Source of the DNA: Streptomyces sp. NBC_01237
GTDB taxonomy: Bacteria; Actinomycetota; Actinomycetes; Streptomycetales; Streptomycetaceae
NCBI RefSeq assembly: GCF_035917275.1
Contig: NZ_CP108508.1
Coordinates: 7,502,001-7,566,000 of the forward strand
Length of the DNA stretch: 64,000 bases
Direction: 5' to 3'
Below are positions 35,155 through 51,286 of this stretch, one piece after another; position 1 is the first letter of the stretch, and each line of letters starts with the position of its first letter. Position numbers and translations under genes: made by a program. Under the pieces are notes generated by a model that saw only the letters and a list, made by a program, of their open reading frames with translations, ran no database searches and was not told the DNA's origin.

Positions 35155-36192
35155 ATGCCAGAAACCAGTCGCAGAGGACTGCTGTTCGGCACCGCGGCCG
35201 TATCCGCGGGAGCTCTCCTCACCGCCTGCACCAGCAATGAACCGAAGAAGAGCGAAACCGTCGCGACCAACCAGCCGGCCGCCGACGACAAGCCGGGCAA
35301 GCCCGTCACCATCGGCTACGCCGGCCCGCAGGCCGACCACGGCTGGCTCAACGCGATCAACGTGAACGCCAAGTCGCGTGCGGAGAAGTACTCGGAGGTG
35401 ACCCTGGAGATCACCGAGGGCTCCAACGACACCGCCGCCCAGATCGGCCAGGTCAAGACCCTCATCAACAAGAAGGTCGACGTCCTCGTCATCCTCCCCG
35501 CCGACGGCAAGGCGCTCACCCAGGTGGGCCTGGAAGCCATGAGGGCGGGCATCCCCGTCGTCAACCTGGACCGCATCTTCGCCTCCCCGCAGGCGTACCG
35601 CTGCTGGGTCGGCGGCGACAACTACGGCATGGGCCTCAACGCCGGTCACTACATCGGCGAACAGCTCAAGGACAAGCCGAACGCCAAGGTCGTCGAACTG
35701 GCGGGCATCGACAACCTGGAGCTCACCAAGCAGCGCAGCCAGGGCTTCGCCGACGCCCTGAAGAACTACTCCAACATCAAGCTGGTGGCCCGTCAGGCCG
35801 CCGACTTCACCGTCGAGTCGGGTCAGGCCAAGATGGCCCAACTCCTCCAGGCACAGAAGCAGTTCGACGCCCTGTGGAACCACGACGACGACCAGGGCGT
35901 CGGCGCGCTGCGCGCCATCCAGCAGGCCGGCCGCGACGAGTTCATGATGGTCGGCGGCGCCGGGGCCAAGTCCGCGATGGACGCCATCAAGGCCGGCAAC
36001 AGCGTCCTGAAGGCCACCGTCCTCTACCCGCCGACGATGGCCGCGTCCGCCATCGACCTGGCGCGCGCCCTGGGCCAGGGCAAGGGCGTCGGGGGACTGG
36101 CCGAGATGGAGATCCCGACCTCCCTGACGCTCTACTCGGCCGTCGTCACCAAGGAGAACGTCGACCAGTACCTGCCGACGGGCTTCAGCTGA
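35155..36192 (+). CDS. Sugar ABC transporter substrate-binding lipoprotein
   Basis: A 345-residue periplasmic-binding-protein type I lipoprotein. The signal sequence has a twin arginine (SRRGLL, residues 5-10) and a lipobox LTAC with the lipid-bearing Cys25, so Tat export followed by lipid anchoring is expected. The mature part (VTIGYAGPQADHGWLNAINV, VDVLVILPADGKAL, GIPVVNLDR) follows the ribose/inositol-binding pattern. ATG 35155 is preferred since the twin-arginine lies close behind it; an in-frame ATG at 35137 is possible. It is the third gene of the uptake operon, 107 bases after the permease, and sets the specificity. Confidence 0.95.
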   Translation: MPETSRRGLLFGTAAVSAGALLTACTSNEPKKSETVATNQPAADDKPGKPVTIGYAGPQADHGWLNAINVNAKSRAEKYSEVTLEITEGSNDTAAQIGQVKTLINKKVDVLVILPADGKALTQVGLEAMRAGIPVVNLDRIFASPQAYRCWVGGDNYGMGLNAGHYIGEQLKDKPNAKVVELAGIDNLELTKQRSQGFADALKNYSNIKLVARQAADFTVESGQAKMAQLLQAQKQFDALWNHDDDQGVGALRAIQQAGRDEFMMVGGAGAKSAMDAIKAGNSVLKATVLYPPTMAASAIDLARALGQGKGVGGLAEMEIPTSLTLYSAVVTKENVDQYLPTGFS

Positions 36193-36239
36193 CAGAGCCC
36201 CACCGCCGCCACCGAACCACCGACGAGGAGGAAGCCCGT

Positions 36240-37463
36240 ATGGCCCGTAGGGAAGAGACGGAGCAGGAGGCCGCAGCGCCGCCGCAGCAGCCGCCGACGC
36301 TCGGGGTCGGCATGGTCGGATACGCGTTCATGGGAGCCGCCCACTCACAGGGGTGGCGCACCGCGGGACACGTCTTCGACCTGCCGATGAGACCCGCTCT
36401 CGCCGCGATCTGCGGACGCGACCGTACGGCGGTCGACGCCGCCGCGGCCCGGCACGGCTGGGCGGCGGCGGAGACCGACTGGCGGGCGCTGATCGCCCGG
36501 GACGATGTGCAGCTGGTCGACATCTGCACCCCCGGCGACAGCCATGCGGAGATCGCCATCGCCGCCCTCGAAGCCGGCAAGCACGTGCTGTGCGAGAAAC
36601 CGCTGGCCAACACCGTCGCGGAGGCGGAGGCGATGACCCGGGCCGCGGAGCGCGCCGCGGCCCGCGGTCAGGTGGCGATCGTGGGCTTCAACTACCGCAA
36701 GGTGCCCGCGATCACCTACGCGCGCAAACTGATCGCCGACGGAAGGCTCGGCACCCTGCGCCACGTGCGGGCCACCTATCTCCAGGACTGGCTGGTGGAC
36801 CCGAAGTCGCCGCTCACCTGGCGGCTCAAGCGTGAGCACGCCGGGTCCGGGGCGCTGGGCGACCTCGGGGCGCACATCGTCGACCTCGCCCAGTACCTGT
36901 CGGGGGAGCTGCTGGTCGGAGTGTCGGCCGTCAGCGAGACGTTCGTACGGCAGCGGCCGCTGCTCGCCGGTGCCCCCTCCGGGCTCTCCGGGGCCGCGGA
37001 CACGGCCGGGCACGGGGCGGTGACGGTGGACGACGCGGCGCTGTTCACCGGCAGGCTCGCCTCCGGGGCGCTGGCCTCCTTCGAGGCGACCCGGATGGCG
37101 GCGGGCCGCAAGAACGCGCTGCGGCTGGAGATCAACGGGGAACTGGGCTCGCTCGCCTTCGATCTGGAGCGGCTCAACGAACTGTCCTTCCACGACCACA
37201 CCGAACCGGCCACCACGGCGGGGTTCCGGCGCATCCTCGTCACCGAACCCGAGCACCCCTACCTGGAGGCGTGGTGGCCGCCGGGCCACGCTCTCGGCTA
37301 CGAGCACACCTTCGTCCACCAGGCCCGGGACGTGGTCCGCACGATCGCCACCGGATCGGCCCCGGTGCCGTCCTTCGCCGACGGACTCCAGGTGCAACGG
37401 GTGCTCGCGGCGGTCGAGGAAAGCGCCGAGAAGAACTCCGTACACACTCCCGTCCCGTTCTAG
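36240..37463 (+). CDS. Gfo/Idh/MocA family oxidoreductase
   Basis: A 407-residue NAD(P)-dependent dehydrogenase. The Rossmann motif is GVGMVGYAFMGAAHSQG (about 21-37); the catalytic-lysine motif is CEKPLA. GAGALGDLGAHIVDLAQYL-type sequence (here GSGALGDLGAHIVD) marks the substrate-side histidine. Family members oxidise sugars or cyclitols, for example inositol or 1,5-anhydro-sugars, often to 3-keto forms. The position right after a CUT2 uptake system and before a sugar isomerase suggests it starts catabolism of the imported compound. The ATG at 36240 follows GAGGAGGAAG. An Ala/Gly-rich insertion lies near residues 240-265. Confidence 0.93.
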   Translation: MARREETEQEAAAPPQQPPTLGVGMVGYAFMGAAHSQGWRTAGHVFDLPMRPALAAICGRDRTAVDAAAARHGWAAAETDWRALIARDDVQLVDICTPGDSHAEIAIAALEAGKHVLCEKPLANTVAEAEAMTRAAERAAARGQVAIVGFNYRKVPAITYARKLIADGRLGTLRHVRATYLQDWLVDPKSPLTWRLKREHAGSGALGDLGAHIVDLAQYLSGELLVGVSAVSETFVRQRPLLAGAPSGLSGAADTAGHGAVTVDDAALFTGRLASGALASFEATRMAAGRKNALRLEINGELGSLAFDLERLNELSFHDHTEPATTAGFRRILVTEPEHPYLEAWWPPGHALGYEHTFVHQARDVVRTIATGSAPVPSFADGLQVQRVLAAVEESAEKNSVHTPVPF

Positions 37464-37478: not shown

Positions 37479-38483
37479 ATGCCCCGACCCTTCACTCTCT
37501 TCACCGGCCAGTGGGCAGACCTTCCGCTGGAGGAGGTCTGCCGGCACGCCCGGGACTTCGGTTACGACGGACTCGAACTCGCCTGCTGGGGCGACCACTT
37601 CGAGGTCGACCGGGCCCTGTCCGAGCCCGGCTACCTGGACGGGCGGCGGCAGCTGCTCGACAAGTACGGGCTCAGCTGCTTCGCCATCTCCAACCACCTG
37701 GTCGGGCAGGCGGTCTGCGACAACCCGATCGACGAACGGCACCAGGCGATCCTGCCCGCCCGCATCTGGGGCGACGGCGAACCCGAAGGCGTACGCCGGC
37801 GGGCCGCCGAGGAGATCAAGGACACCGCGCGAGCGGCGGCGGCGTTCGGGGTGCGGACGGTCATCGGCTTCACCGGCTCCTCGATCTGGCACCTGGTCGC
37901 CATGTTCCCGCCGGTCCCGCCGCACATGATCGAGCGGGGCTACGAGGACTTCGCGGAGCGCTGGAACCCGATCCTCGACGTCTTCGACGCGGAGGGGGTG
38001 CGCTTCGCCCACGAGGTGCACCCCAGCGAGATCGCGTACGACTACTGGACCACGCACCGGGCCCTGGAGGCCGTCGGCCACCGTCCGGCGTTCGGGCTGA
38101 ACTTCGACCCGAGCCACTTCGTCTGGCAGGACCTCGACCCGGTCGGATTCCTGTACGACTTCCGGGACCGGATCTACCACGTGGACTGCAAGGAGGCCCG
38201 CAAGCGCCTCGACGGACGAAACGGGCGGCTCGGCTCGCACCTGCCCTGGGGCGATCCCCGGCGCGGCTGGGACTTCGTCTCGGCCGGGCACGGCGACGTG
38301 CCGTGGGAGGACGTCTTCCGGATGCTCCGGTCCATCGGCTACGACGGGCCCGTCTCCGTCGAGTGGGAGGACGCCGGCATGGACCGGCTGACCGGTGCGC
38401 CGGAAGCGCTTGCCTCACTGAAGCGGTTCGATTTCGACCCGCCGTCGGCCTCCTTCGACGCGGCGTTCGGCGGCAACGGCTGA
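37479..38483 (+). CDS. Sugar phosphate isomerase/epimerase (AP endonuclease 2-type TIM barrel)
   Basis: A 334-residue xylose-isomerase-like TIM barrel, the family of IolE/IolI and keto-sugar epimerases. Metal ligands expected for the family are visible in [14 protein letters not shown] (Glu), [11 protein letters not shown] (Asp/His), YHVDCKEA (Asp/His) and [11 protein letters not shown] (Glu). It starts 16 bases after the dehydrogenase stop with TAGGAGG in the gap, so the two are in one operon. It most likely isomerises or dehydrates the keto-sugar made by the dehydrogenase. A strong terminator follows. Confidence 0.92.
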
Positions 38484-38818: not shown

Positions 38819-41800
38819 GTGCACCGAACCAGAAAGCGGCTCCGCGTACACAAAACCCTCGCCCTGTTCACCGGCGGACTCCTCGCCGCCGCGACGCTCA
38901 CCCTGAGCTCCGCGCCGGGGGCCATCGCCGACCCGGCCGCGCAGGCCGCGCAGGACGCCGCGGCGGAGGACTTCCAGCAGGTCACCCTCGCCAAGGGGGC
39001 CGCCGAGACCGGCGAGCCCATGTCGCTCGCCGTCCTCCCGGACCGCAGCGTGCTGCACACCTCGCGCAGCGGCGAGCTGCGGATCACCGACAGCGCCGGC
39101 AACACCCGGATATCCGGCACCCTCCCGGTGTACTCGCACGACGAGGAAGGGCTCCAGGGGGTCGGCGTCGACCCGGACTTCGCCGAGAACCGGGCGATCT
39201 ACCTCTTCTACGCGCCCCCGCTCAGCACCCCCGCCGGCGACGCCCCGGAGAACGGGACCGCCGCGGACTTCGCCAAGTTCGACGGTGTGAACCGGCTCTC
39301 CCGGTTCGTCCTCAAGGCCGACGGCACCCTCGACACCGCCAGCGAGAAGAAGGTCCTCGACGTTCCCACCTCGCGCGGCATGTGCTGCCACGTCGGCGGC
39401 GACATGGACTTCGACGCGCAGGGCAACCTGTATCTGTCGACGGGTGACGACTCCAACCCCTTCGCCTCCGACGGCTTCACGCCGATCGATGACCGGCCCG
39501 ACCGCAACCCGGCGTTCGACGCCCGCCGCACCTCCGGCAACACCAACGACCTGCGCGGCAAGATCCTGCGCATCAAGGTCGCCGACGACGGGACGTACAC
39601 CGTTCCCGACGGCAACCTGTTCGCCCCGGGCACCGCGAAGACCCGCCCCGAGATCTACGCGATGGGCTTCCGCAACCCGTTCCGCTTCACCGTCGACAAG
39701 CCCACCGGCATCGTCTACGTCGGCGACTACGGCCCCGACGCGGGTGCCGCCGACCCCAAGCGCGGACCGTCCGGACAGGTCGAGTTCGCCCGGGTGACGA
39801 AGGCCGGGAACTTCGGCTGGCCCTTCTGCGTGGGCGACAACAAGCCCTACGTCGACTACGACTTCGGGACGAAGACCTCGGGTGCGGCCTTCGACTGCGC
39901 CGCTCCGAAGAACGAGTCGGCGCACAACACCGGACTCGTCGACCTGCCTCCGGCCCAGCCCGCCTGGATTCCGTACGACGGCGGCTCCCTGCCCGAGTTC
40001 GGCACCGGCTCCGAGTCCCCGATGGGCGGCCCGGTCTACCGCTACGACGCGGCCCTCGACTCGCCGGTGAAGTTCCCCGAGGCGTACGACGGAGACTTCT
40101 TCGCCGGAGAGTTCGGCCGGAAGTGGATCAAGCGCATCGAGCAGGACGGGGAAGGCGCCGTCCAGTCCATCAACGACATCCCGTGGACCGGCACGCAGAT
40201 CATGGACATGGCCTTCGGCCCGGACGGTGCGCTGTACGTCCTCGACTACGGCCTGGCCTGGTTCGGCGGCGACGAGAACTCCGCGCTCTACCGCATCGAG
40301 AACGCCACCGGAGGGCGCTCACCCGTCGCCGAGGCAGCGGTGAACAAGACCTCGGGCACCGCACCGCTGAAGGCGAAGTTCTCCTCGGCGGGCACCGCCG
40401 ACGGTGACGGCGACGCGCTCACATACGCCTGGGACTTCGGCGACGGCGGAAAGTCCACGGCCGCCAACCCCTCGTACACGTACAAGAAGAACGGTACGTA
40501 CACGGCGACCCTCACCGCCAAGGACCCCACGGGCCGCACCGGCTCGGCCAGCGTCCATGTGACCGTCGGCAACACCGCGCCGAGCGTGGACCTCGTCTTC
40601 CCCTCGGACGGCCAGCAGTTCGAGTTCGGTGACGCGGTGCCGTTCAAGGTCGACGTCAGTGACCCCGAGGACGGGGCCATCGACTGCACCAAGGTCGAGG
40701 TCAAGTTCACGCTCGGCCACGACAGCCACGGCCATGACATCACCACCGAGCACGGCTGCGAAGGCACCATCAAGACCGCGATGGAGGGCGGGCACGACCC
40801 CAACGCCAACATCTACGGCGGCATCTCGGCCTCCTACACCGACGGCGGGGGCGGCGGCCAGGCCGCGCTGACCGGCCGCGACCAGGCACAGCTCCAGCCC
40901 AAGCACCGTCAGGCCGAGCACTTCGGCGACTCGTCGGGCGTCAAGATCTACGACAAGGCGAGCGCCCGCGGCGGCAAGACCGTCGGTGACATCAACAACG
41001 ACGACTGGATCTCCTTCAAGCCGTACATCCTCGCCGGGTCCACCAAGCTCACGGCCCGGGTGTCCTCCGACGGCGCGGGAGGCTTCCTGGAGGTACGCGC
41101 CGGATCGGCCACCGGCAAGATCCTCGGCTCCGCACCCGTACCGGTGACCGGCGGCTGGGACACCTTCCAGGACATCGACGTACCCCTGCGCGGGGCGCCC
41201 AAGAAGGCCACCGAACTCTTCCTGGTCTTCAAGGGCGGTGACGGCGCGCTCTACGACGTCGACGACTTCGAACTCTCCAACAGCCCCGTGGACAGGACCG
41301 CCAAGCGCATCCTGGTCTTCTCCAAGACCGGTGGCTTCCGCCACGACTCGATCCCGGCCGGCATCACCGCCCTGAAGGAACTGGGCAAGGACACCAACAT
41401 CACCGTCGACTCCACCGAGGCGGCCGGCCAGTTCACCACCAGCAACCTGGCGCGCTACGACGCCGTCGTCTTCCTCTCCACCACCGGTGACGTCCTCAAC
41501 GCCGAACAGCAGAAGGCGTTCGAGAACTACGTGGCGGGCGGAGGCGGCTACATGGGCGTCCACGCCGCCGCCGACACCGAGTACGACTGGGAGTTCTACG
41601 GCGGCCTGGTCGGCGCCTACTTCTCCTCGCACCCGCAGATCCAGCCCGCGACCGTCCGCGTCGAGGACCACGACCACCCGGCCACCGCCCATCTGGACGA
41701 GGCCTGGGACCGCACCGACGAGTGGTACAACTACCGCACCAACCCGCGCGACAAGGCCAACGTCCTCGCCACCCTGGACGAGACCACCTACACCGGCGGC

Positions 41801-42526
41801 ACGATGAAGGGCGATCACCCGATCTCCTGGTGCCAGACCTACCAGGGCGGCCGCTCCTTCTACACCGGGCTCGGCCACACCAAGGAGTCCTACACCGAAC
41901 CGGCCTTCCGCCAACACCTGCTGGGCGGCATGCGCTACGCCGCCGGCCAGGTCAAGGCCGACTGCAAGCCCGACACCGGCTACCGCACCATCTTCAACGG
42001 CAGGACGCTCGAAGGGTGGAAGCAGGCGGGCCCCGGAAAGTTCGACGTCACGGACGGTGAACTGCGCTCCGAGGGCGGCATGGGCCTGCTCACCTACCAG
42101 GCCAAGGAGCTGAAGTCGTACTCCCTGAAGCTCGACTGGAAGATGGCGGGCGACGACAACTCCGGCGTCTTCGTCGGCTTCCCGGAGTCGGACGACCCGT
42201 GGTCCGCGGTGAACAAGGGCTACGAGATCCAGATCGACGCCACGGACGCCGTCGACCGCACCACGGGCGCCGTCTACACCTTCAAGTCGGCCAACATCAA
42301 GGCCCGTGACCAGGTCCTGCGGCCGCCCGGTCAGTGGAACAGCTACGAGATCCGGGTCCAGGGCGAACGGCTCCAGATCTTCCTCAACGGAGTCAGGATC
42401 AACGACTTCACCAACACCGATCCGGCCCGCAGCCTGAAGGACGGCTACATCGGCCTCCAGAACCACGGAGCCGACGACCAGGTGTCCTTCCGCAACATCC
42501 AGCTCAAGGAGCTGCCCTCGACGTAG
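38819..42526 (+). CDS. Large secreted GSDH-PKD-CBM6-ThuA-DUF1080 multidomain protein
   Basis: A 1235-residue exported protein. A signal peptide with basic start (RTRKRLRVHK) and hydrophobic core ends near AIADPA (about 42). Then follow: a PQQ-type glucose/sorbosone dehydrogenase propeller (about 50-495; GMCCHVGGDMDFD, GFRNPFRFTVD), a PKD domain (about 500-590, YAWDFGDGG), a linker, a CBM6-like module (about 690-822), a ThuA glutamine-amidotransferase-like domain (about 830-1040; GYMGVHAAADTEYDW) and a C-terminal DUF1080 3-keto-disaccharide hydrolase domain (1050-1235). This joins sugar oxidation, sugar binding and keto-glycoside hydrolysis in one chain. The GTG at 38819 follows GGAGG. Its sugar product could feed the neighbouring transporter. 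Confidence 0.93.
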   Translation: MHRTRKRLRVHKTLALFTGGLLAAATLTLSSAPGAIADPAAQAAQDAAAEDFQQVTLAKGAAETGEPMSLAVLPDRSVLHTSRSGELRITDSAGNTRISGTLPVYSHDEEGLQGVGVDPDFAENRAIYLFYAPPLSTPAGDAPENGTAADFAKFDGVNRLSRFVLKADGTLDTASEKKVLDVPTSRGMCCHVGGDMDFDAQGNLYLSTGDDSNPFASDGFTPIDDRPDRNPAFDARRTSGNTNDLRGKILRIKVADDGTYTVPDGNLFAPGTAKTRPEIYAMGFRNPFRFTVDKPTGIVYVGDYGPDAGAADPKRGPSGQVEFARVTKAGNFGWPFCVGDNKPYVDYDFGTKTSGAAFDCAAPKNESAHNTGLVDLPPAQPAWIPYDGGSLPEFGTGSESPMGGPVYRYDAALDSPVKFPEAYDGDFFAGEFGRKWIKRIEQDGEGAVQSINDIPWTGTQIMDMAFGPDGALYVLDYGLAWFGGDENSALYRIENATGGRSPVAEAAVNKTSGTAPLKAKFSSAGTADGDGDALTYAWDFGDGGKSTAANPSYTYKKNGTYTATLTAKDPTGRTGSASVHVTVGNTAPSVDLVFPSDGQQFEFGDAVPFKVDVSDPEDGAIDCTKVEVKFTLGHDSHGHDITTEHGCEGTIKTAMEGGHDPNANIYGGISASYTDGGGGGQAALTGRDQAQLQPKHRQAEHFGDSSGVKIYDKASARGGKTVGDINNDDWISFKPYILAGSTKLTARVSSDGAGGFLEVRAGSATGKILGSAPVPVTGGWDTFQDIDVPLRGAPKKATELFLVFKGGDGALYDVDDFELSNSPVDRTAKRILVFSKTGGFRHDSIPAGITALKELGKDTNITVDSTEAAGQFTTSNLARYDAVVFLSTTGDVLNAEQQKAFENYVAGGGGYMGVHAAADTEYDWEFYGGLVGAYFSSHPQIQPATVRVEDHDHPATAHLDEAWDRTDEWYNYRTNPRDKANVLATLDETTYTGGTMKGDHPISWCQTYQGGRSFYTGLGHTKESYTEPAFRQHLLGGMRYAAGQVKADCKPDTGYRTIFNGRTLEGWKQAGPGKFDVTDGELRSEGGMGLLTYQAKELKSYSLKLDWKMAGDDNSGVFVGFPESDDPWSAVNKGYEIQIDATDAVDRTTGAVYTFKSANIKARDQVLRPPGQWNSYEIRVQGERLQIFLNGVRINDFTNTDPARSLKDGYIGLQNHGADDQVSFRNIQLKELPST

Positions 42527-42542
42527 GGCGGCCACCTCTGCC

Positions 42543-42587
42543 GACGGCGGGCGGGGGAGGCTCACACACCTTCCCCCGCCCGCCGTC
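42543..42587. terminator. 16-bp terminator stem between the multidomain gene and the ebo operon
   Basis: GACGGCGGGCGGGGGA (42543-42558) pairs perfectly with 42572-42587 around a 13-base loop. It stands 16 bases after the ThuA-type gene and 37 before the next start, so little room remains for a separate promoter; partial readthrough is plausible. Confidence 0.75.
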
Positions 42588-42623
42588 CTCCACCCCTCTT
42601 CATCCCCCCAGGGAGGCAGCCCC

Positions 42624-43745
42624 GTGACCGCACATGCCGTTCGTACCGGAGTCTGGTTCATCGGAGCACGCGGCTCCGTCGCCACCACCGCCACCACCGG
42701 CTGCGCCGCCATCGCGGCGGGGCTCCACCCGGCGACCGGCATGGTCACCGAGACACCCCCCTTCGCCGACGTCGGACTGCCACCCCTGGCCTCCCTGGTC
42801 TTCGGCGGTCACGACACCATCGACTGCCCGCTGCCCAAACGGGCCGAGGCGCTGGCCGCCGGAGAGGTCCTCCCGCACGGCCTGCCCTCCGCCGTACGCG
42901 CCGAACTCACCACGGCCGACGCGGAGATACGGATCGGCGGACCGCTCCCCGGCGACACCCGCACCGACGAGGAACTCATCACGGCGTTCACCGCCGACCT
43001 CACCGACTTCGCCCGCCGCAACGAACTGGCGCGCACCGTCGTCATCAATGTCTCCTCGACCGAACCCGCCCCCGGCCCTGACGACCCCCGGCTGCCCGCC
43101 AGCTCCCTCTACGCCGCCGCCGCGCTCCGGGCCGGCTGTCCCTACGTCAACTTCACCCCCTCAACGGGCCTGCGCAGCCCGGCCCTTCAGGACACCCTCG
43201 CCACCTGTGCGCTTCCCCACGCGGGCCGCGACGGCAAGACCGGCCAGACACTGCTCCGTTCCGTCCTCGCCCCGATGTTCCTGCAACGCGCCCTGCCCGT
43301 CCGGGCCTGGTCCGGCACGAACCTGCTCGGTGGCGGGGACGGGGCCGCGCTGGCCGACCCGGCCGCGGCGGCGGCCAAGAACGCGGGCAAGGAACGCGTC
43401 CTGGCCGACACCTTCGGCACCGCCCCCGAGGGCGAGGTGCACATCGACGACGTCCCGGCGATGGGGGACTGGAAGACGGCCTGGGACCACATCGCCTTCG
43501 ACGGCTTCCTCGGCTCCCGGATGATCCTCCAGACGATCTGGCAGGGCTGCGACTCCGCGCTGGCGGCCCCCCTGGTCCTGGACCTGGCCCGGCTGCTGGC
43601 CCGCGCCCACGAGGCCGGTCTGACGGGCCCCCTGCCGGAGCTGGGCTTCTACTTCAAGGACCCGGACGGCGGCGCCCCGGCCGCGCTGTCCGAGCAGTAC
43701 GCGGCCCTGGTGGCCTTCGCCGAGCGGCTGCGGGGGCAGCAGTGA
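42624..43745 (+). CDS. Inositol-3-phosphate synthase-like protein of the ebo operon
   Basis: A 373-residue member of the myo-inositol-phosphate synthase (Ino1) family, which normally cyclises glucose 6-phosphate to a cyclitol phosphate using NAD. The NAD loop is VWFIGARGSVATTATTG (about 10-26). NVSSTEP, VNFTPSTGL and GKTGQTLLRSVLAPMF correspond to the family's conserved segments. It diverges from the standard enzyme, so the product could be another cyclitol. It heads a run of overlapping genes and stands in place of the cyclase EboD of other ebo clusters. The GTG at 42624 follows AGGGAGG. Its stop overlaps the prenyltransferase start (GTGA). Confidence 0.9.
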   Translation: MTAHAVRTGVWFIGARGSVATTATTGCAAIAAGLHPATGMVTETPPFADVGLPPLASLVFGGHDTIDCPLPKRAEALAAGEVLPHGLPSAVRAELTTADAEIRIGGPLPGDTRTDEELITAFTADLTDFARRNELARTVVINVSSTEPAPGPDDPRLPASSLYAAAALRAGCPYVNFTPSTGLRSPALQDTLATCALPHAGRDGKTGQTLLRSVLAPMFLQRALPVRAWSGTNLLGGGDGAALADPAAAAAKNAGKERVLADTFGTAPEGEVHIDDVPAMGDWKTAWDHIAFDGFLGSRMILQTIWQGCDSALAAPLVLDLARLLARAHEAGLTGPLPELGFYFKDPDGGAPAALSEQYAALVAFAERLRGQQ

Positions 43746-45088
43746 GGTGGCGTCTGCCGGCGGCCCTGCTGAGCACCGTGACCGGGACACGGCAGGCCAC
43801 GGCGGCCGGAGCCGCCACGCCGTCACGTCCGGCCGCCGCGCCCGCCGCGCCCGCGGGTCCGGCCGCCGCCGCGGTGCCCACCGACAGCCTGTCCGGTGCG
43901 GGCGGGACTGCGCCCGCACCGGACAGGCGCACGACGCCGCGAGGCGGCCGGGCCCGTGCGTGGGCGGAACTCCTTCGGGTGTCCGCACTGTTCACGGTGC
44001 CCGGCGACGCGCTCGCCGGAGCGGCGGCGGCGGGCCTGCGCCCCAACCGCCGCACCGCGCTCGCCGTGGGCGCCTCGCTCTGCCTGTACGAGGCGGGGAT
44101 GGCCCTCAACGACTGGGCGGACCGGGACGAGGACGCCGTCGACCGCCCGCACCGCCCGATTCCCTCGGGCCGGATCGCCCCGGCCGCCGCGCTGGGCGCG
44201 GCCGGAGCGCTGACGGTCGCGGGCCTCGCCCTGGCGGCCCGCGCGGGCCGCCCCGCGCTGCTGGCGGCCTCGGGTCTCGCGGCCACGGTCTGGGCGTACG
44301 ACCTGCGTCTCAAGCACACGAAGGCGGGCCCGGCGGCGATGGCCGCGGCGCGCGGACTCGACCTGCTGCTGGGCGCGACGGCGACGGCAGGGGCTCCCGG
44401 CGATGCCGCTGCTCCGGCGCGGCGCACCGCCCCCGCACCGACGGCGGCTGCCGCCGTCGCCACCACCCGCCCGGGACGGGGCCCGGCCGTCACCGCCCCG
44501 CCGCGAACCGGCGTGCCGCCGGTCCCCGCAGGCGCTCGCACCGTCGTGGGCGCCGTCGCGCCGCGCCCCTTCGCCGCCGCCCGCGCAGCGGTCCCCGCCG
44601 CCGCCCTGCTGGGAGCGCACACCTACGCCGTCACCGCCGTCTCGCGGCACGAGGCGCAGGGCGGGTCCACCGTGGCGCCGCTCGCCGCGCTCGGTGCCAC
44701 GGCGGTGTTCGGCATCGCCGTGGCGGGCGGGCGCCACGGGGGCGGGGGGCCGCCCCCGGTCCAGGGCGGCGCCGGTGCGGGGGAGCACCTCGCCGGGCCA
44801 CCGCGCGCCACCGCGCTCCGGGCCTCCGCGTTCGCCTCGACACCGGACCGGCTCCTGCTCACCGCGCTCGCCGCCGTCTACCTCCGTACCGCCGGGCCAC
44901 CCCTCCTGCACGCCGCCCTCAACCCGTCCCCGGACCTCACCCAGCGCGCGGTGGGCGGCGGTATCCGGGCCATGATCCCGCTCCAGGCCGCGCTGGCCGC
45001 CCGAGCCGGGGCACCCGGTGCCGGGCTCGTCGTCATGAGCCTCGTCCCCCTCGCCCGGAAACTCGCACGGAAGGTGAGCCCCACATGA
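43742..45088 (+). CDS. eboC: UbiA-family prenyltransferase (EboC-type)
   Basis: A 448-residue integral membrane prenyltransferase. The Asp-rich prenyl-diphosphate motif is NDWADRDEDAVDR (N123 to R133), followed by HRPIPSGR, a UbiA hallmark; the second motif region reads YDLRLKHT. Hydrophobic helices fill the rest. Typical members are about 290-300 residues; this one is longer because of Ala/Pro-rich segments at about 15-75, 217-283 and a Gly-rich one at 325-355. It probably attaches an isoprenoid chain to a polar, perhaps cyclitol, acceptor made by the gene before it. Coupled on both sides by GTGA and ATGA overlaps. Confidence 0.88.
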   Translation: MRWRLPAALLSTVTGTRQATAAGAATPSRPAAAPAAPAGPAAAAVPTDSLSGAGGTAPAPDRRTTPRGGRARAWAELLRVSALFTVPGDALAGAAAAGLRPNRRTALAVGASLCLYEAGMALNDWADRDEDAVDRPHRPIPSGRIAPAAALGAAGALTVAGLALAARAGRPALLAASGLAATVWAYDLRLKHTKAGPAAMAAARGLDLLLGATATAGAPGDAAAPARRTAPAPTAAAAVATTRPGRGPAVTAPPRTGVPPVPAGARTVVGAVAPRPFAAARAAVPAAALLGAHTYAVTAVSRHEAQGGSTVAPLAALGATAVFGIAVAGGRHGGGGPPPVQGGAGAGEHLAGPPRATALRASAFASTPDRLLLTALAAVYLRTAGPPLLHAALNPSPDLTQRAVGGGIRAMIPLQAALAARAGAPGAGLVVMSLVPLARKLARKVSPT

Positions 45089-46062
45089 CCCTCCACCTCG
45101 GCTACGGCACCAACGGGCTCACCGACCTCCGCCTCGACGACGCCCTCGGGCTCCTCGCCGACCTCGGGTACGAGGGGGTCGGCCTGACCCTCGACCACAT
45201 GCACCTCGACCCCCTCGCCCCGGACCTCGCCGAGCGCACCCGCCAGGTGCGCCGCAGGCTCGACGCCCTGGGGCTGGGCGTCACCGTGGAGACCGGCGCC
45301 CGCTATGTCCTCGACCCCCGCCGCAAGCACGGCCCCTCCCTCCTCGACCCGGACCCGGAGGCCCGCGCCGCCCGTACCCGGCTGCTCGTCCGGGCCGTCG
45401 ATGTGGCCGCCGACCTCGGCGCCCACGCCGTGCACTGCTTCAGCGGAATCACACCACCCGACCTCTCCGCGGACCTCTCTCCGGACGTCTCCGCGAACCT
45501 CTCTCCGGGCGCGACGCCGGACACCGCACCGGATTCGGCAGCGCATGCGGCACCGGACGCCGCACGGGGATCGATACCGGACACCGCCTCGGACACCGCC
45601 TGGAAGCGGCTGGCCGACGGGCTCACCCCCGTGCTCGACGCCGCCGACCGCGCGGGCATCCCCCTCGCCATCGAGCCCGAACCCGGTCATCTGCTCGCCA
45701 CACTCGCCGACTTCCACCATCTGCGCGCACTCCTCGGGGACCCCGCCCCCCTCGGGCTCACCCTCGACATCGGCCACTGCCAGTGCCTGGAGACGGCCTC
45801 GCCCGTGGACTGCGTCCGGGAGTCCGCGCCCTGGCTCCGCCATGTCCAGATCGAGGACATGCGGCGCGGCGTCCATGAACACCTCCCCTTCGGCGACGGC
45901 GAGATCGACTTCCCGCCGGTGCTCGCCGCACTCGCCGAGTCGGACTACCAGGGCCTCACCGTCGTCGAACTGCCCCGCCACTCCCACGCGGGACCCGAAC
46001 TCGCCCGCCGGTCGATCGAATTCCTGCGCGAGGTCACGACGAAGGGAGCCCTCCCGTGCTGA
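45085..46062 (+). CDS. Sugar phosphate isomerase/epimerase of the ebo operon with a repeat-derived insert
   Basis: A 325-residue AP-endonuclease-2-type TIM barrel. Strand and ligand motifs are HLGYGTNGLTDLRLDD, AHAVHCFSGIT, PLAIEPEPGHL (Glu), GLTLDIGHCQCLE (Asp/His), RHVQIEDMRRGVHEH (Asp/Arg), and LTVVELPRHSH (Glu). Residues 126-171 are a low-complexity insert rich in D, P, S and A, built from tandem repeats. It lies in a loop, so the barrel may still fold. Coupled to the UbiA gene (ATGA) and overlapping the EboA gene by 7 bases. It likely isomerises a sugar or cyclitol intermediate. Confidence 0.88.
   Translation: MTLHLGYGTNGLTDLRLDDALGLLADLGYEGVGLTLDHMHLDPLAPDLAERTRQVRRRLDALGLGVTVETGARYVLDPRRKHGPSLLDPDPEARAARTRLLVRAVDVAADLGAHAVHCFSGITPPDLSADLSPDVSANLSPGATPDTAPDSAAHAAPDAARGSIPDTASDTAWKRLADGLTPVLDAADRAGIPLAIEPEPGHLLATLADFHHLRALLGDPAPLGLTLDIGHCQCLETASPVDCVRESAPWLRHVQIEDMRRGVHEHLPFGDGEIDFPPVLAALAESDYQGLTVVELPRHSHAGPELARRSIEFLREVTTKGALPC
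45460..45507 (+). repeat. Tandem 12/24-bp repeats inside the ebo isomerase gene
   Basis: Four consecutive units (GACCTCTCCGCG, GACCTCTCTCCG, GACGTCTCCGCG, AACCTCTCTCCG) form two 24-bp repeats and encode DLSADLSPDVSANLSP. Degenerate CCGGACACCGC-type repeats continue to about 45600. Slippage of the copying polymerase explains the pattern. Confidence 0.8.
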
Positions 46063-46724
46063 AGTCCCGCGAGGAACTCGACGGCGAGCTCGGCGGAGCC
46101 GCCAGGGCCTGGCTCGACGAAGCGCTCGCCGAAGCCGCGCACGACGCCGCCCGCACCCGGTCCGGCCCCGCGGCGGACAGCCCGTACGCCGCGCCGCCGT
46201 GGGAGCTGCGGTACGCCGCGGCGGGCCGGCACTGCGGACTCGAACACGCCGACTCCGTACGCTGCCTCCTCCTCGTCGAGGCCCGTGCCGCCCTGCCCTC
46301 CGTGACCCGGCTCTACGAACGGGGCACCGCCGCCGAACGCCGCGCCGTCCTGCTCACCCTGCACCGGCTGGCTCTCGGCCCCTCGGCACTCCCGCTCGTC
46401 GAGGACGCCCTGCGCACCAACGACACCCGGCTGGTCGCCGCGGCCGTCGGACCCTACGCGGCCGCCCACCTCGACGCGCACGGCTGGCGGCACGCCGTCC
46501 TCAAGTGCCTGTTCACCGAGGTCCCCGTCGAAGCCGTCGCCGAGCTCGCCCGCCGTGCTCAGGGGGATACCGAACTCGCGCGCATGCTCGGGGACTTCGC
46601 CGCCGAGCGCACCGCCGCCGGCCGTACCGTCCCCGCCGGTCTGCGCACGGTCCTCGCCCTCACGGAAGCCACCGCAGCCGCTGCCCCGGCCCCCGCACCC
46701 GCCGCCCCCACGGAGGAGTCCTGA
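46056..46724 (+). CDS. eboA: EboA domain-containing protein
   Basis: A 222-residue, mostly helical soluble protein matching the EboA family in size and position. Landmarks are the N-terminal WLDEAL helix, PPWELRYAAAGRHCG, the YERGTAAERRAVLLTLHRL repeat-like helices, LVEDALRTNDTRLVAAAVGPY and HAVLKCLFTEVP. The Ala/Pro tail (from about 203) is extra. EboA has no established activity; it is thought to be a small helical partner in metabolite traffic. The GTG at 46056 overlaps the preceding gene, and its own stop overlaps the next start as TGATG. Confidence 0.88.
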   Translation: MLKSREELDGELGGAARAWLDEALAEAAHDAARTRSGPAADSPYAAPPWELRYAAAGRHCGLEHADSVRCLLLVEARAALPSVTRLYERGTAAERRAVLLTLHRLALGPSALPLVEDALRTNDTRLVAAAVGPYAAAHLDAHGWRHAVLKCLFTEVPVEAVAELARRAQGDTELARMLGDFAAERTAAGRTVPAGLRTVLALTEATAAAAPAPAPAAPTEES

Positions 46725-47572
46725 TGCGCATCTTCGACCCCCACATCCATATGACCTCCCGTACCACCGACGACTACCGGGCGATGTACGACGCCGGGGT
46801 CCGGGCGCTCGTCGAACCCTCCTTCTGGCTCGGCCAGCCCCGCACCTCGCCCGCCAGCTTCTTCGACTACTTCGACGCCCTGCTCGGCTGGGAACCCTTC
46901 CGCGCCTCCCAGTACGGCATCGCCCACCACTGCACGCTCGCCCTCAACCCCAAAGAGGCGAACGACCCCCGTTGCACCCCGGTCCTGGACGCGCTGCCCC
47001 GCTACCTCGTCAAGGACTCCGTCGTCGCCGTCGGTGAGATCGGCTACGACTCCATGACCCCCGCCGAGGACGTCGCCCTCGCCGCCCAGCTCCAGCTCGC
47101 CGCCGACCACGGGCTGCCCGCCCTCGTCCACACCCCGCACCGCGACAAGCTCGCCGGTCTGCACCGCACCATCGACGTCATCCGCGAATCGCACCTCCCC
47201 CCGGAGCACGTGCTGCTCGATCACCTCAACGAGACGACCGTGAAGGCCGCCACCGACAGCGGCTGCTGGGCCGGCTTCTCCATCTACCCCGACACCAAGA
47301 TGGACGAGGACCGGATGGTCGCGATCCTCAAGGACCACGGCACCGAGAAGATCCTCGTCAACTCCGCCGCCGACTGGGGAAGGAGCGACCCGCTGAAGAC
47401 CCGCAAGGTCGCCGACGCCATGCTGAAGGCCGGGTTCACCGAGGACGACGTCGACCAGGTGCTCTGGCGCAACCCCGTCGCCTTCTACGGGCAGAGCGGC
47501 CGCCTCCAGCTCGACATCGCCGCCCCCGACCCGCTCCACGAAGGCAACTCCATCCTGCGCGGCGGGGAGTGA
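46724..47572 (+). CDS. eboB: TatD family hydrolase (EboB-type)
   Basis: A 282-residue metal-dependent hydrolase of the TatD/amidohydrolase type. The HxH metal motif is FDPHIHMTSR (H7, H9), with VVAVGEIGYDSM (Glu), ALVHTPHRDK (His), VLLDHLNE (His) and VNSAADWG (Asp) supplying the later ligands. In ebo clusters this gene is eboB. The substrate is unknown. GGAGGAG precedes the ATG at 46724, which shares bases with the EboA stop (TGATG), so its translation depends on the upstream gene. Confidence 0.92.
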   Translation: MRIFDPHIHMTSRTTDDYRAMYDAGVRALVEPSFWLGQPRTSPASFFDYFDALLGWEPFRASQYGIAHHCTLALNPKEANDPRCTPVLDALPRYLVKDSVVAVGEIGYDSMTPAEDVALAAQLQLAADHGLPALVHTPHRDKLAGLHRTIDVIRESHLPPEHVLLDHLNETTVKAATDSGCWAGFSIYPDTKMDEDRMVAILKDHGTEKILVNSAADWGRSDPLKTRKVADAMLKAGFTEDDVDQVLWRNPVAFYGQSGRLQLDIAAPDPLHEGNSILRGGE

Positions 47573-47576
47573 GGCG

Positions 47577-48752
47577 ATGCGCTTCCGCCATCCGGACGGC
47601 TCCACCGTCCACCTCTCCTACTGCACCAACGTGCATCCCGCCGAGAGCCTCGACGGAGTCCGCGCCCAACTGCGCGACCACTGCGAACCGGTACGCAGAC
47701 GCCTCGGACGCGACCGCCTGGGCATCGGCCTCTGGCTCGCCAAGGACGCCGCACACGCCCTGATCAACGACCCCGCCGAACTGCGGTCGCTCCGCGCCGA
47801 GCTGGACCGCCGCGGTCTCGAAGTGGTCACCCTCAACGGCTTCCCCTACGAGGGCTTCGGCGCCGAGGAGGTCAAGTACCGCGTCTACAAACCGGACTGG
47901 ACCGACCCCGAACGGCTCTCCCACACCACCGACCTCGCCCGCCTCCTCGCCGCCCTGCTGCCCGACGATGTCGGCGAAGGCACCATCTCCACCCTGCCGA
48001 TCGCCTGGCGCACCCCGTACTCCGGGGACGCCGAGGCCGCCCGCGCCGCGCGCAAGGCCCTCATCACCCTGGCCCAGCGCCTCGACGTCCTCGCCGAGCT
48101 GACCGGCAAGTCGATCCGCATCGGCCTCGAACCGGAACCCGGCTGCACCGTGGAGACCACCGCCGACGCCATCACCCCGCTCACCGGGGTGGGGCACGAC
48201 CGCATCGGTATCTGCGTCGACACCTGCCACCTCGCCACCTCCTTCGAGGACCCCGGCACCGCGCTGGACGCCCTGGCCGCCGCCGGTGTGCCCGTCGTCA
48301 AGTCCCAGCTCTCCGCCGCCCTGCACGCCGAACACCCCCATCGGCCCGAGGTGCGCACCGCGCTCGCCGCCTTCGCCGAGCCCCGCTTCCTGCACCAGAC
48401 CCGCACCCGTACCGCCACCGGGCTGCTCGGAACCGACGACCTCGACGAGGCACTGGCCGGACGGGCGTTACCGGACAGCGGCCCGTGGCGCTCCCACTTC
48501 CACGTACCGCTGCACGCACCACCGGCGCCCCCGCTCACCTCCACCCTCCCCGTGCTCCGCGACACGCTCGCCCGGCTCGTCGGCGGCGCGCTGCCCCTGA
48601 CCCGGCACCTGGAGGTCGAGACGTACACCTGGCAGGCACTCCCGGCCGAGCTGCGGCCCCGCAACCGCACCCAGCTGGCCGACGGGATCGCCGCCGAACT
48701 CACCCTCGCCCGCGACCTCCTGGTCGACCTCGGCCTCAAGGAGCTCCCATGA
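47577..48752 (+). CDS. eboE: Metabolite traffic protein EboE
   Basis: A 391-residue xylose-isomerase-like TIM barrel of the EboE family, specific to ebo clusters. Typical stretches are LSYCTNVHPAESLDG at the start, VVTLNGFPYEGFG, RIGLEPEPGCTVETT (Glu), RIGICVDTCHLATSFED (Asp/His), and the C-terminal LEVETYTWQALP. Family members are named for metabolite export to the periplasm in cyanobacteria (scytonemin precursor); the exact reaction is not known. It starts 4 bases after the EboB stop and its own stop overlaps the next gene (ATGA). Confidence 0.92.
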   Translation: MRFRHPDGSTVHLSYCTNVHPAESLDGVRAQLRDHCEPVRRRLGRDRLGIGLWLAKDAAHALINDPAELRSLRAELDRRGLEVVTLNGFPYEGFGAEEVKYRVYKPDWTDPERLSHTTDLARLLAALLPDDVGEGTISTLPIAWRTPYSGDAEAARAARKALITLAQRLDVLAELTGKSIRIGLEPEPGCTVETTADAITPLTGVGHDRIGICVDTCHLATSFEDPGTALDALAAAGVPVVKSQLSAALHAEHPHRPEVRTALAAFAEPRFLHQTRTRTATGLLGTDDLDEALAGRALPDSGPWRSHFHVPLHAPPAPPLTSTLPVLRDTLARLVGGALPLTRHLEVETYTWQALPAELRPRNRTQLADGIAAELTLARDLLVDLGLKELP

Positions 48753-50146
48753 GCACCCCCGTGAAGGACAGCGCCCCCACCCCCCTCCTCGTCCTGGACG
48801 TCGTCGGCCTCACCCCCCAGCTCCTCGCCCATATGCCCAACCTCCGGGCCATGGCCGCGTCGGGCGCCCAGGCACCGCTCTCCACCGTCCTGCCCGCCGT
48901 CACCTGTGCCGCCCAGTCCACCTTCCTCACCGGAACCACGCCCGCCGAGCACGGCATCGTCGCCAACGGCTGGTACTTCCGCGAACTCGGCGACGTCCTG
49001 CTGTGGCGCCAGCACAACGGACTCGTCGAGGGCGACAGGCTCTGGGACGCGGCCCGCCGCGCCCACCCCGGCTACACCGTCGCCAACATCTGCTGGTGGT
49101 ACGCGATGGGCGCCGACACCGACTACACCGTGACCCCGCGCCCCGTCTACTACGCCGACGGCCGCAAGGAGCCCGACTGCTACACCAGGCCCCCGGCCCT
49201 GCACGACGAGCTCACCGACAAGCTCGGCACCTTCCCCCTCTTCCACTTCTGGGGCCCCGGAGCCGACCTCGTCTCCTCCCAGTGGATCATCGACGCCACC
49301 CGGCACATCCTCGCCACCCGCACCCCCGACCTGGCCCTGTGCTACCTGCCCCACCTCGACTACGACCTCCAGCGCTACGGCCCCGACGACCCCCGCTCCC
49401 ACCGGGCGGCCGCCGATCTCGACCGGGCCGTCGCCCCGCTGCTCGCCGACGCCCGCGCCGAAGGCCGTACCGTCGTCGCGCTCTCCGAATACGGGATCAC
49501 CCGCGTCGAGCGGCCCGTCGACATCAACCGGGCGCTGCGCCGGGCGGGCCTGCTGGAGGTGCACACCCAGGACGGCATGGAATACCTCGACCCGATGGCC
49601 TCCCGTGCCTTCGCCGTCGCCGACCACCAGATCGCCCATATCTACGTACGCCGTCCCGAGGACCTCGAAGCCACCCGCGAAGCCCTCGCGGACCTGCCCG
49701 GCATCGACCAACTCCTGGACGACGAGGGCAAGAAGGCCCACCACCTGGACCACCCCCGCTCCGGCGAACTCGTCGCCGTGGCGGAGAAGGACGCCTGGTT
49801 CACGTACTACTACTGGCTCGACGACGCCCGCGCCCCCGACTTCGCACAGCTCGTCGAGATCCACCGCAAACCCGGCTACGACCCCGTCGAGCTCTTCATG
49901 GACCCTCAGGACCCCTACGTCCGGGTCAAGGCCGTCACGGCGGTCGCCCGCAAGAAGCTGGGCATGCGCTATCGCATGGCGGTCGTCCCTCTCGACCCGT
50001 CACCTATCCGCGGCAGCCACGGCCGCCTCCCCACGAGCGACGACGAAGGTCCGCTCATCCTCTGCTCCACCCCCCACGCCTTCCCCGGACGGGTCCGGGC
50101 CACCGAAGTGAAGTCCCTGCTCCTCCAGCTTGCCGGACTGCACTGA
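48749..50146 (+). CDS. eboF: Type I phosphodiesterase / nucleotide pyrophosphatase (EboF-type)
   Basis: A 465-residue alkaline-phosphatase-superfamily enzyme. Metal and nucleophile motifs are LLVLDVVGLTPQL (Asp), LPAVTCAAQSTFLTGTTP (Thr nucleophile), YLPHLDYDLQRYGPDD (Asp/His) and a SEYG where relatives have SDHG, then the late TPHAFPG histidine. No signal peptide, so it acts inside the cell. In ebo clusters this gene is eboF; cleaving a phosphodiester on a lipid- or nucleotide-linked intermediate is a reasonable guess. ATG 48749 overlaps the EboE stop (ATGA). Confidence 0.9.
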   Translation: MSTPVKDSAPTPLLVLDVVGLTPQLLAHMPNLRAMAASGAQAPLSTVLPAVTCAAQSTFLTGTTPAEHGIVANGWYFRELGDVLLWRQHNGLVEGDRLWDAARRAHPGYTVANICWWYAMGADTDYTVTPRPVYYADGRKEPDCYTRPPALHDELTDKLGTFPLFHFWGPGADLVSSQWIIDATRHILATRTPDLALCYLPHLDYDLQRYGPDDPRSHRAAADLDRAVAPLLADARAEGRTVVALSEYGITRVERPVDINRALRRAGLLEVHTQDGMEYLDPMASRAFAVADHQIAHIYVRRPEDLEATREALADLPGIDQLLDDEGKKAHHLDHPRSGELVAVAEKDAWFTYYYWLDDARAPDFAQLVEIHRKPGYDPVELFMDPQDPYVRVKAVTAVARKKLGMRYRMAVVPLDPSPIRGSHGRLPTSDDEGPLILCSTPHAFPGRVRATEVKSLLLQLAGLH

Positions 50147-50194: not shown

Positions 50195-51286
50195 GTGATC
50201 ATGAGCCGCACCCCGAAGGACTCCGAACTCGCGCGCAGACTCAGCCGCCGCAACATCCTGGGCGTCGCCGCCGGAGCCACCGCGGCCTCCATCGTCGGCG
50301 CCGCCACCGCCAGTGCCGACAGCCGCGACCGGGAGGGCGCCCACGGCAAGGGTCACGGCCACGGCCACCAGCACGAGGGCCACGGCAAGGGCCGCGCCGT
50401 CCTGCCCCCCGGCCGCCTGGGCATCCAGCTCTACAGCCTCCGCGACAAGATCTCCACCCTCGGCTTCGCCGCCGTCTTCGCCGAGCTGGAGGAGTACGGC
50501 TACGACGAGATCGAGTTCGCCGGATACACCCAGGGCTCGGCCGGCGCCCTCACCCTCGCCCAGCTCAAGAGGCTGGCCCGGGACCACGGGCTGAACCCCA
50601 TCGGCAGCCATGTCGGCCACTCCGACGACAACAACCCGGGGGCGTACACCTTCGCCCAGAACCTCACCAAGGTCCTGGACGACGCCGAGGCCCTCGGCCT
50701 CAAGCACATAGGCACGCCCTCCGGACCGTTCCGCTACGGCTCCACGGTCGACGGCTGGAAGCGGGTCGCCGAGGAGTTCAACACCTACGGTGCCGCCGCC
50801 CGCAAACGCGGCATGAAGTTCTACCAGCACAACCACGCCGAGGAGTTCTCCTTCGCGACCGACAGGCCGGACGTACGCCTCTACGATGTCCTGCTCGCCG
50901 AGACCGATCCCGACCTGGTCTATCTGGAGCTGGACATCTACTGGGCCTACTGCGCGCAGTTCCGCTTCTCCAGGAGGGCGGACGGCACCCCGGCGCCCCT
51001 GGACCCGCTCAAGTACGTGCTCAAGCACCCCGACCGCTACCCCCTGTTCCATGTCAAGGACGGCGTCCGCGACGACACCGCCCGCGACGGCTACCGCATG
51101 TCGGACGTCGGTGACGGGGACATCGACTACAAGACGTTCCTGTCCAAGGTGACCCACCGGACCCATCGCGGCCGCACGTACCACCACTGGCAGACCGAGC
51201 ACGACAACCCGGTCGACTCCATGGCCTTCGCCCGCAAGTCCAGCGAGCACCTGCACTCGCTGCGCGAGGGCCGCTGCGGGGACTGA
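50195..51286 (+). CDS. Tat-exported sugar phosphate isomerase/epimerase with His-rich linker
   Basis: A 363-residue secreted TIM barrel of the xylose-isomerase-like family. The N-terminus carries a twin-arginine signal (LSRRNILGVAAG, about 16-27) and an Ala-rich core ending ATASAD. Then follows a His/Gly/Lys linker (GKGHGHGHQHEGHGKG, about 51-66). The barrel starts at RLGIQLYSLRD, with IEFAGY, KFYQHNHAEEF (Glu), VYLELDIYWAY (Asp), LFHVKDG and the final HWQTEHDNP (Glu). Periplasmic keto-sugar hydratases or epimerases have this layout. It follows the EboF gene by 48 bases with AAGGGAG. GTG 50195 and ATG 50201 are both possible starts. Confidence 0.92.
   Translation: MIMSRTPKDSELARRLSRRNILGVAAGATAASIVGAATASADSRDREGAHGKGHGHGHQHEGHGKGRAVLPPGRLGIQLYSLRDKISTLGFAAVFAELEEYGYDEIEFAGYTQGSAGALTLAQLKRLARDHGLNPIGSHVGHSDDNNPGAYTFAQNLTKVLDDAEALGLKHIGTPSGPFRYGSTVDGWKRVAEEFNTYGAAARKRGMKFYQHNHAEEFSFATDRPDVRLYDVLLAETDPDLVYLELDIYWAYCAQFRFSRRADGTPAPLDPLKYVLKHPDRYPLFHVKDGVRDDTARDGYRMSDVGDGDIDYKTFLSKVTHRTHRGRTYHHWQTEHDNPVDSMAFARKSSEHLHSLREGRCGD

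Follow-up and report, generated by a model that had tools for sequence, protein, structure and literature searches.

The ebo genes are a conserved bacterial set with a putative role in moving small molecules across the cell membrane; the classical operon (eboABCDEF) occurs in Nostoc, Bacteroidota and eustigmatophyte plastids. When ebo genes are deleted in Nostoc, the scytonemin monomer remains in the cytoplasm (PMC6282210). For the classical operon, a prenylated cyclitol lipid with a part in metabolite traffic has already been put forward as the product (PMC5133447, PMC6282210), and in three papers (PMC5133447, PMC6282210, PMC9235831) the nature of the ebo product is treated as an open question. 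Here, we describe an ebo cassette in a 64,000-nucleotide stretch of DNA (hereafter "the window", meaning the whole stretch analysed) from the actinomycete Streptomyces sp. NBC_01237, whose genome measures 10.19 Mb. By its gene content, the cassette appears to be a second form of ebo, in which the sugar phosphate cyclase EboD is replaced by a pair of proteins: a homologue of archaeal-type myo-inositol-1-phosphate synthase (Ino1L) and a xylose-isomerase-like triosephosphate-isomerase (TIM) barrel, called TIM below. This form is apparently new to the literature searched (most subscription papers lay outside its scope), which described no Ino1-type ebo cluster, no tie to 3-keto-glycosides and no haloarchaeal relatives.

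The cassette comprises seven genes running in a single direction over positions 42624-50146, in the order Ino1L-UbiA-TIM-A-B-E-F:

42624..43745, + strand: Ino1L, archaeal-type myo-inositol-1-phosphate synthase homologue (PF07994, 108 bits; PF01658, 98 bits)
43742..45088, + strand: UbiA-superfamily prenyltransferase, SCO3242 family, the EboC equivalent (PF01040; NF045897, 371 bits)
45085..46062, + strand: TIM, xylose-isomerase-like TIM barrel, partner of Ino1L (PF01261)
46056..46724, + strand: EboA (NF035938 EboA domain, 154 bits)
46724 (ATG)..47572, + strand: EboB, TatD-like metal-dependent hydrolase (PF01026, 48 bits; cut-off 27)
47577..48752, + strand: EboE, TIM-barrel "metabolite traffic protein" (NF035939, 430 bits; cut-off 250)
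48749 (ATG)..50146, + strand: EboF, type I phosphodiesterase/nucleotide pyrophosphatase family (PF01663, 235 bits)

A first-pass annotation, made from the letters and their translations, had placed seven genes of these families here; an open-reading-frame (ORF) check and searches with Pfam and NCBIfam profiles bore out every coordinate and family. Its description of the genes as overlapping holds for adjacent genes sharing 1–7 bases, but not for EboB and EboE, which are separated by 4 bases. The cut-offs of NF035938, PF01026 and PF01663 were all passed; against the narrower EboA_family model, NF035937, EboA scored 52 bits vs. a cut-off of 320. The predicted structure of EboA is all-helical (mean predicted local distance difference test score, pLDDT, of 91), and EboB matches the AF_1765 structure 3GUW with 93 bits. 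In a genome-wide profile search, EboE was the sole match to NF035939 in the host genome. No EboD is encoded inside the operon. Ino1L accompanies EboE at 107 further actinobacterial loci, nearly all of which also have the remaining genes; this grouping of genes is far beyond chance. The adjacency of TIM and EboA recalls the actinobacterial fusion of EboA to a xylose-isomerase-like protein that was reported by Yurchenko et al. (PMC5133447), in whose text the word "inositol" is absent.

How regularly does Ino1L stand where EboD would be expected? We used reference proteins to type 215 EboE loci: 80 from a species-genome scan, 15 from plasmid records and 120 from actinobacterial genomes. The sample is uneven, as the 80 scan loci are the best 80 of 572 confirmed candidates ranked by similarity to the EboE of Gemmatirosa, and the presence of two EboE genes in a genome was one reason for picking the first 20 actinobacterial genome loci; the further 60 + 40 are part of the genome match lists. 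(Saccharomonospora, which is named as an ebo carrier in PMC9235831, lies outside the typed loci.) With thresholds of 140 bits for EboD and 150 bits for Ino1L and TIM, 73 loci had EboD, 108 had Ino1L, none had both and 34 had neither. The third-gene TIM barrel accompanied Ino1L at 105/108 loci and was present at none of the 73 EboD loci (and at 10 of the 34 loci with neither cyclase); the replacement is thus a two-gene pair, Ino1L plus TIM. All but one of the Ino1L loci (107/108) are actinobacterial, the lone exception being Gemmatirosa. For the EboD genes in ebo loci, the best-matching of four references mostly gave 370–511 bits; scores were lower for a few genes that are split or truncated. 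Taken at the level of these typed loci, the exchange of Ino1L for EboD is almost certainly systematic and exclusive.

Several of the typed or related records deserve description in their own right. At L143, the cassette has Ino1L, UbiA and EboF matches that are each fragmented, as in a decaying copy or a record with sequencing errors. Two actinobacteria (L095, L098) have an EboE-like gene with no other ebo gene nearby; by eye, its neighbors are alcohol-dehydrogenase-like and peptidase-like. A Streptomyces plasmid retains a solitary eboE amid type II polyketide genes (L040:9995-11173). Five loci of the window's genus (L017, L026, L032, L163, L190) hold a second ebo-type cluster without Ino1L, upstream of which lie a CrtO-like flavoenzyme gene and a gene of the inositol-monophosphatase family. 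On plasmids of Hymenobacter and Roseomonas (L274, L275), an Ino1-like gene is located near a sugar-isomerase TIM barrel, YcaO and Gfo/Idh genes, and no ebo gene is annotated. The Hymenobacter TIM barrel is 48% identical to that of Gemmatirosa, and Ino1 plus TIM may be a self-standing cyclitol module on these two plasmids.

The association was also assessed in whole genomes. Among 296 genomes across the class, 79 EboE genes exceeded the cut-off, in 76 genomes, and Ino1L was within 12 kb of 70 of them (median distance, 3.4 kb). Ino1L was present in 71 of the 76 EboE genomes vs. 3 of the remaining 220 (Fisher p = 3e-58, with relatedness ignored). The nine EboE genes without a nearby Ino1L consist of five lone genes (L208, L221, L224, L231, L232), a same-genus paralogue (G128), and G335, G374 and G511, in which Ino1L sits on another contig. 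An EboD query of the 296 genomes, in which at most six candidates were scored per genome and matches were not individually typed, returned nothing above 135 bits and, among the matches listed, identities of at most 39%, which is the AroB-like level; four of the best matches, once fetched, scored no more than 152 bits against the EboD references. In a sample of 121 genomes from the window's genus, EboE was matched in 88 (in 85 over the cut-off). At least one Ino1 gene was present in all 121; by hand count, at least two were found in 85 of the 88 EboE-positive genomes, and a single one in 31 of the 33 EboE-negative genomes.

Ino1L itself is archaeal in type. Its closest solved structure is the Archaeoglobus fulgidus synthase 1U1I (198 bits; 42% identity across 206 aligned residues), while the mycobacterial-type 1GR0 gave only 28 bits. 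Eight of eight positions of 1U1I that we take to be catalytic or active-site residues (D225, N255, D261, K274, K278, K306, D332, K367) are identical in Ino1L; K278 and K367 appear as alanine mutants in the entries 3QVW and 3QVX. Two other positions of the A. fulgidus enzyme, E230 and D259, are Q and G in Ino1L. The model for housekeeping (mycothiol-type) Ino1, TIGR03450, scored 20.9 bits on Ino1L vs. an equivalog cut-off of 638, and nine housekeeping-type copies matched it with only 21–28 bits. In a tree of 51 Ino1 proteins, 33 actinobacterial cassette rows formed one clade (support, 98), adjacent to four haloarchaeal rows (91); the nine housekeeping rows, including the host genome's other two copies, formed a separate clade (100) on a very long branch. 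This tree and those of EboE and EboF below are quick ones with Shimodaira-Hasegawa-like approximate likelihood ratio test (SH-aLRT) support, and several housekeeping Ino1 rows are partial. Judged by these comparisons, Ino1L is of a lineage distinct from the housekeeping inositol synthase. Members of the superfamily build differing rings (its structure list includes a synthase of a five-membered cyclitol phosphate, 6K96), and therefore the exact product of Ino1L cannot be read from sequence.

These results bear on the central proposal of the first-pass annotation, that an Ino1-like enzyme fills EboD's place. The neighborhood count that it had suggested, Ino1-like vs. EboD-like genes near EboE, came out at 108 vs. 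73 with no overlap, in keeping with the proposal; it needs amending in that the TIM barrel, which had been listed as an isomerase, is no bystander but part of what replaces EboD. Two circumstances that it had flagged as damaging were not encountered: Ino1L does not group with the housekeeping copies, and no EboD-type gene tied to the operon was found elsewhere in the host genome. A single gene of the dehydroquinate (DHQ)-synthase family passes the Pfam cut-off in this genome; located at 1.52 Mb (~33% identity and 124–135 bits to EboD), it resembles by sequence the AroB-like genes of other genomes in the class. A further, weak match to the family, at 7.74 Mb, is below the cut-off.

The prenyltransferase had been named EboC, and this name needs qualification. 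The protein, which has a low-complexity N-terminus and an internal insert, did not reach the cut-off of the EboC model NF035940 (114 bits vs. 250) and passes NF045897, "SCO3242 family prenyltransferase", instead. On these profile scores, the SCO3242 family is a sister of EboC. What the two share is the donor site: 11 residues are identical in 79 of 79 aligned EboC, SCO3242 and haloarchaeal UbiA rows, and the donor-site residues are common to both ebo types. The first Foldseek hit by E-value was the archaeal digeranylgeranylglyceryl-phosphate (DGGGP) synthase 6M31, closely followed by further UbiA homologues from archaea. The substrate that DGGGP synthase prenylates is a polyol phosphate; a cyclitol phosphate acceptor for UbiA would fit.

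More than one exchange has probably taken place. At the Gemmatirosa locus there are Ino1L, TIM and an SCO3242-like UbiA, with no EboD. In the EboE and EboF trees, the Gemmatirosa rows are nevertheless placed amid those of the EboD type, close to a Gemmatimonadetes contig that bears EboD (L055). To explain the EboE tree, the cyclase type must have changed at least twice (support on the relevant branches, 83–97), although some rows in the EboE and EboF trees are partial or long-branched (L050, L034, L023) and inflate the counts of changes. From these topologies, Gemmatirosa probably represents a second, separate exchange.

The locus stretches past 42624-50146 both upstream and downstream. The flanking genes of note are:

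32451..33998, + strand: ATP-binding cassette (ABC) transporter ATPase with two ABC stretches (PF00005)
34753..36192, + strand: ORF with a periplasmic sugar-binding domain from residue 187 (PF13407, 156 bits)
35874..37463, + strand: ORF with a Gfo/Idh/MocA oxidoreductase (PF01408/PF22725); the domain starts at residue 144, and the true start is probably inside the ORF
37479..38483, + strand: TIM2, TIM barrel like 2-hydroxy-3-keto-glucal hydratase (703 bits to 2ZDS, 141 bits to 8RO4)
38819..42526, + strand: multidomain protein with a signal-like start (by eye); glucose/sorbosone dehydrogenase, PKD, CBM6, ThuA and PF06439 3-keto-disaccharide hydrolase parts by Pfam (PF06439, 155 bits)
42527..42623, + strand: gap between the sugar-dehydrogenase gene and Ino1L, with a strong, GC-rich hairpin without a T-tract (-55.7 kcal/mol; z-score, -5.4; 0 of 200 shuffles equally low)
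50195..51286, + strand: sTIM, TIM-barrel protein with a twin-arginine-like start by eye (PF01261; 77 bits to 8TCD, "sugar phosphate isomerase")

A ROK-family gene is also found upstream of the cassette. Two families of the 3-keto-glycoside pathway are encoded here, the hydratase type (TIM2) and the hydrolase family PF06439, and by these matches the cassette is embedded in a locus resembling those for 3-keto-glycoside metabolism. The partners recur. We counted them on either side of the cassette and in either orientation, at Ino1L-bearing loci outside the six plasmid loci. A homologue of the glucose/sorbosone dehydrogenase part (at least 100 bits) was found at 57/64 same-genus loci and 18/37 other actinobacterial loci, and at none of 20 control regions; TIM2 homologues were found at 29/64 and 12/37, and sTIM homologues (at least 40 bits) at 56/64 and 11/37. 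At least one partner with 80 bits or more (dehydrogenase part, ThuA part, TIM2 or sTIM) was present at 59/64 Ino1-type same-genus and 24/37 other actinobacterial loci. In the 20 control regions, drawn from the same genomes, no partner homologue was found at an E-value of 1e-5. Other settings exist: some cassettes adjoin type II polyketide genes or a peptide synthetase, and on two Streptomyces plasmids an Ino1-type cassette directly follows a gene of the ScyD/ScyE family near a multicopper oxidase. ScyE acts in the synthesis of scytonemin, a process that needs ebo (PMC6282210). Shortly downstream of the window's locus lie a tRNA-Leu(gag) (52843-52930) and a DDE transposase gene (54861-55718).

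Relatives of the cassette were found in haloarchaea. On plasmids from three genera (Natronococcus, Halobaculum and Halocatena), EboB, UbiA, Ino1L and EboF homologues adjoin two copies of TIM, in a set that reads TatD-TIM-UbiA-TIM-Ino1-phosphodiesterase and bears no ebo label in the records. Their EboF homologues group with actinobacterial EboF (support, 96). The Natronococcus set also includes a pyrroloquinoline quinone (PQQ)-dependent sugar dehydrogenase, with 180 bits to the window's neighbor, and Halocatena has an annotated ThuA protein, yet one with no match to the window's ThuA part. In Haladaptatus, the set occurs without Ino1 in the stretch that was fetched, and a DUF1080 protein and a Gfo/Idh oxidoreductase are nearby; on two Halomarina plasmids Ino1 is present and the set absent. 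The haloarchaeal relatives, the 3-keto-glycoside-like neighborhood and the probable second exchange in Gemmatirosa had all been overlooked in the first-pass annotation.

From the genes, the exclusive exchange, the retained active-site residues and the recurrent partners, we infer a set of reactions, a lipid product and a task. Ino1L would turn a sugar phosphate into a cyclitol phosphate, which the partner TIM barrel may isomerise, epimerise or dehydrate; together they would provide the ring that EboD provides in the classical type. The EboC-type prenyltransferase would attach an isoprenoid to this ring or to a product derived from it, EboB, EboE and EboF might trim or recycle the head group, and EboA, being helical, could be a scaffold protein. 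The membrane lipid so formed would serve compounds that are handled on the membrane's outer face. In the window, these compounds are probably glycosides that the secreted sugar-dehydrogenase/ThuA protein oxidises, and elsewhere they may be secondary metabolites. We assign this model, an Ino1-type ebo cassette making a prenylated cyclitol membrane lipid for the handling of compounds on the outer face, a probability of roughly 55%. The cyclitol part of the product is strongly supported, because two unrelated cyclases are exchanged while the prenyltransferase, hydrolase, TIM-barrel and phosphodiesterase families around them stay constant.

A number of observations weigh against this model. Ino1 products retain their phosphate. 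EboD-type enzymes release theirs (PMC5133447), and the rings made in the two types may therefore differ. In vitro, the only EboC to have been tested (Ubi-297) transferred a farnesyl group to an aromatic acid (PMC9235831). At 80 bits, sugar-locus partners are absent from 5/64 same-genus, 13/37 other actinobacterial and 6/6 plasmid loci; given these absences and the polyketide and peptide-synthetase neighbors, no single substrate fits all cassettes. The three haloarchaeal sets lack an EboA match, and their EboE scores are weak (24–34 bits) and fall in TIM barrels. Of the 34 loci with neither cyclase, 18 are lone or cut-off EboE genes and 16 are clusters. Nine of these clusters, from the window's genus, keep TIM without Ino1L (L017, L026, L028, L031, L032, L034, L145, L163, L190); two are interleaved or cut (L030, L175), one has Ino1L on a different contig of its genome (L213), and the others are from other phyla (L056, L063, L081, L113). 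Two alphaproteobacterial clusters among the latter, L063 and L081, have EboE, UbiA, EboA, EboB and EboF and neither cyclase in their flanks, which makes it unlikely that every ebo locus encodes a cyclase.

Could the cassette instead make a diffusible, cyclitol-derived terpenoid, that is, a secondary metabolite whose link to export is indirect? Yurchenko et al. argued for a prenylated cyclitol metabolite (PMC5133447), cassettes do adjoin biosynthetic genes, and SCO3242 and SCO3243 are listed among the genes of the CDA cluster in PMC3610822 (their status as cassette orthologues is based on an NCBIfam name and one passage of that paper). A shared helper is, however, a better fit to the finding of the same set beside type II polyketide genes, peptide synthetase, a sugar locus and ScyE, and scytonemin mutants pile up the monomer in the cytoplasm (PMC6282210); we regard the terpenoid as a possible but rather doubtful product. 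Alternatively, the cassette might be a catabolic branch of the 3-keto-glycoside-like locus, with the TIM barrels, EboB and EboF processing sugar intermediates, Ino1L acting on a keto-sugar and UbiA being secondary. The partner families are indeed known from 3-keto-glycoside breakdown, and such families (PQQ sugar dehydrogenase, ThuA, DUF1080) are near the haloarchaeal sets too. Such a branch seems unlikely to us in view of the strongly conserved UbiA active site, the cassettes beside antibiotic-type genes and the absence of partners at 18/101 loci from actinobacterial genomes and at each of the six plasmid loci.

A third possibility is that Ino1L is simply an additional inositol-1-phosphate synthase, serving phospholipid or mycothiol and lying beside the ebo genes by coincidence. 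This agrees with its enzyme family and with the presence of Ino1 in every genome of the genus sample. This explanation is highly improbable and already contradicted by the separate lineage of Ino1L, its proximity to 70/79 EboE genes and the tracking of a further Ino1 gene with EboE (85/88 vs. 31/33 with just one). There is, finally, a bolder form of the membrane-lipid model, which overlaps with it: both ebo types and the haloarchaeal relatives would produce a membrane lipid of a novel class, with a redox or carrier function, a head group derived from a cyclitol (perhaps dehydrated and quinone-like) and, as its users, secreted oxidoreductases of the beta-propeller type that need it. These users would be ScyE in scytonemin synthesis, the window's sugar dehydrogenase and the PQQ-type dehydrogenase in Natronococcus. 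We hold this extension to be improbable as it stands; were it true, "metabolite traffic" would in part amount to providing the outer face with a carrier of electrons or substrates.

Returning to the membrane-lipid model, its significance lies chiefly in the exchange. That two unrelated ring-forming enzymes replace each other exactly, and probably did so twice, is strong genetic evidence for a cyclitol in the ebo product. With the sugar-oxidising neighbors and the haloarchaeal relatives, in turn, the question is no longer confined to a cyanobacterial pigment but concerns a helper pathway that spans two domains of life.

The cassette can thus be set beside four known systems. Ino1L, a putative synthase, is like the A. 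fulgidus enzyme 1U1I in its 42% identity and its eight kept active-site positions; E230 and D259 are changed, and Ino1L is fixed within an ebo-type operon. The 3-keto-glycoside enzymes (hydratase 8RO4, hydrolase PF06439) have family members in TIM2 and the multidomain neighbor, but at the window these flank the cassette and are not members of it. The haloarchaeal sets of Natronococcus, Halobaculum and Halocatena share the EboB, TIM, UbiA, Ino1L and EboF families and, in Natronococcus, a sugar dehydrogenase, although they have two TIM barrels and are without EboA or a proper EboE. Compared with the classical ebo operon, the window's cassette has Ino1L plus TIM instead of EboD, a gene order of its own and a UbiA that exceeds the SCO3242 rather than the EboC cut-off, yet it keeps homologues of EboA, EboB, EboC-type UbiA, EboE and EboF in one operon, along with the donor-site residues of the prenyltransferase.

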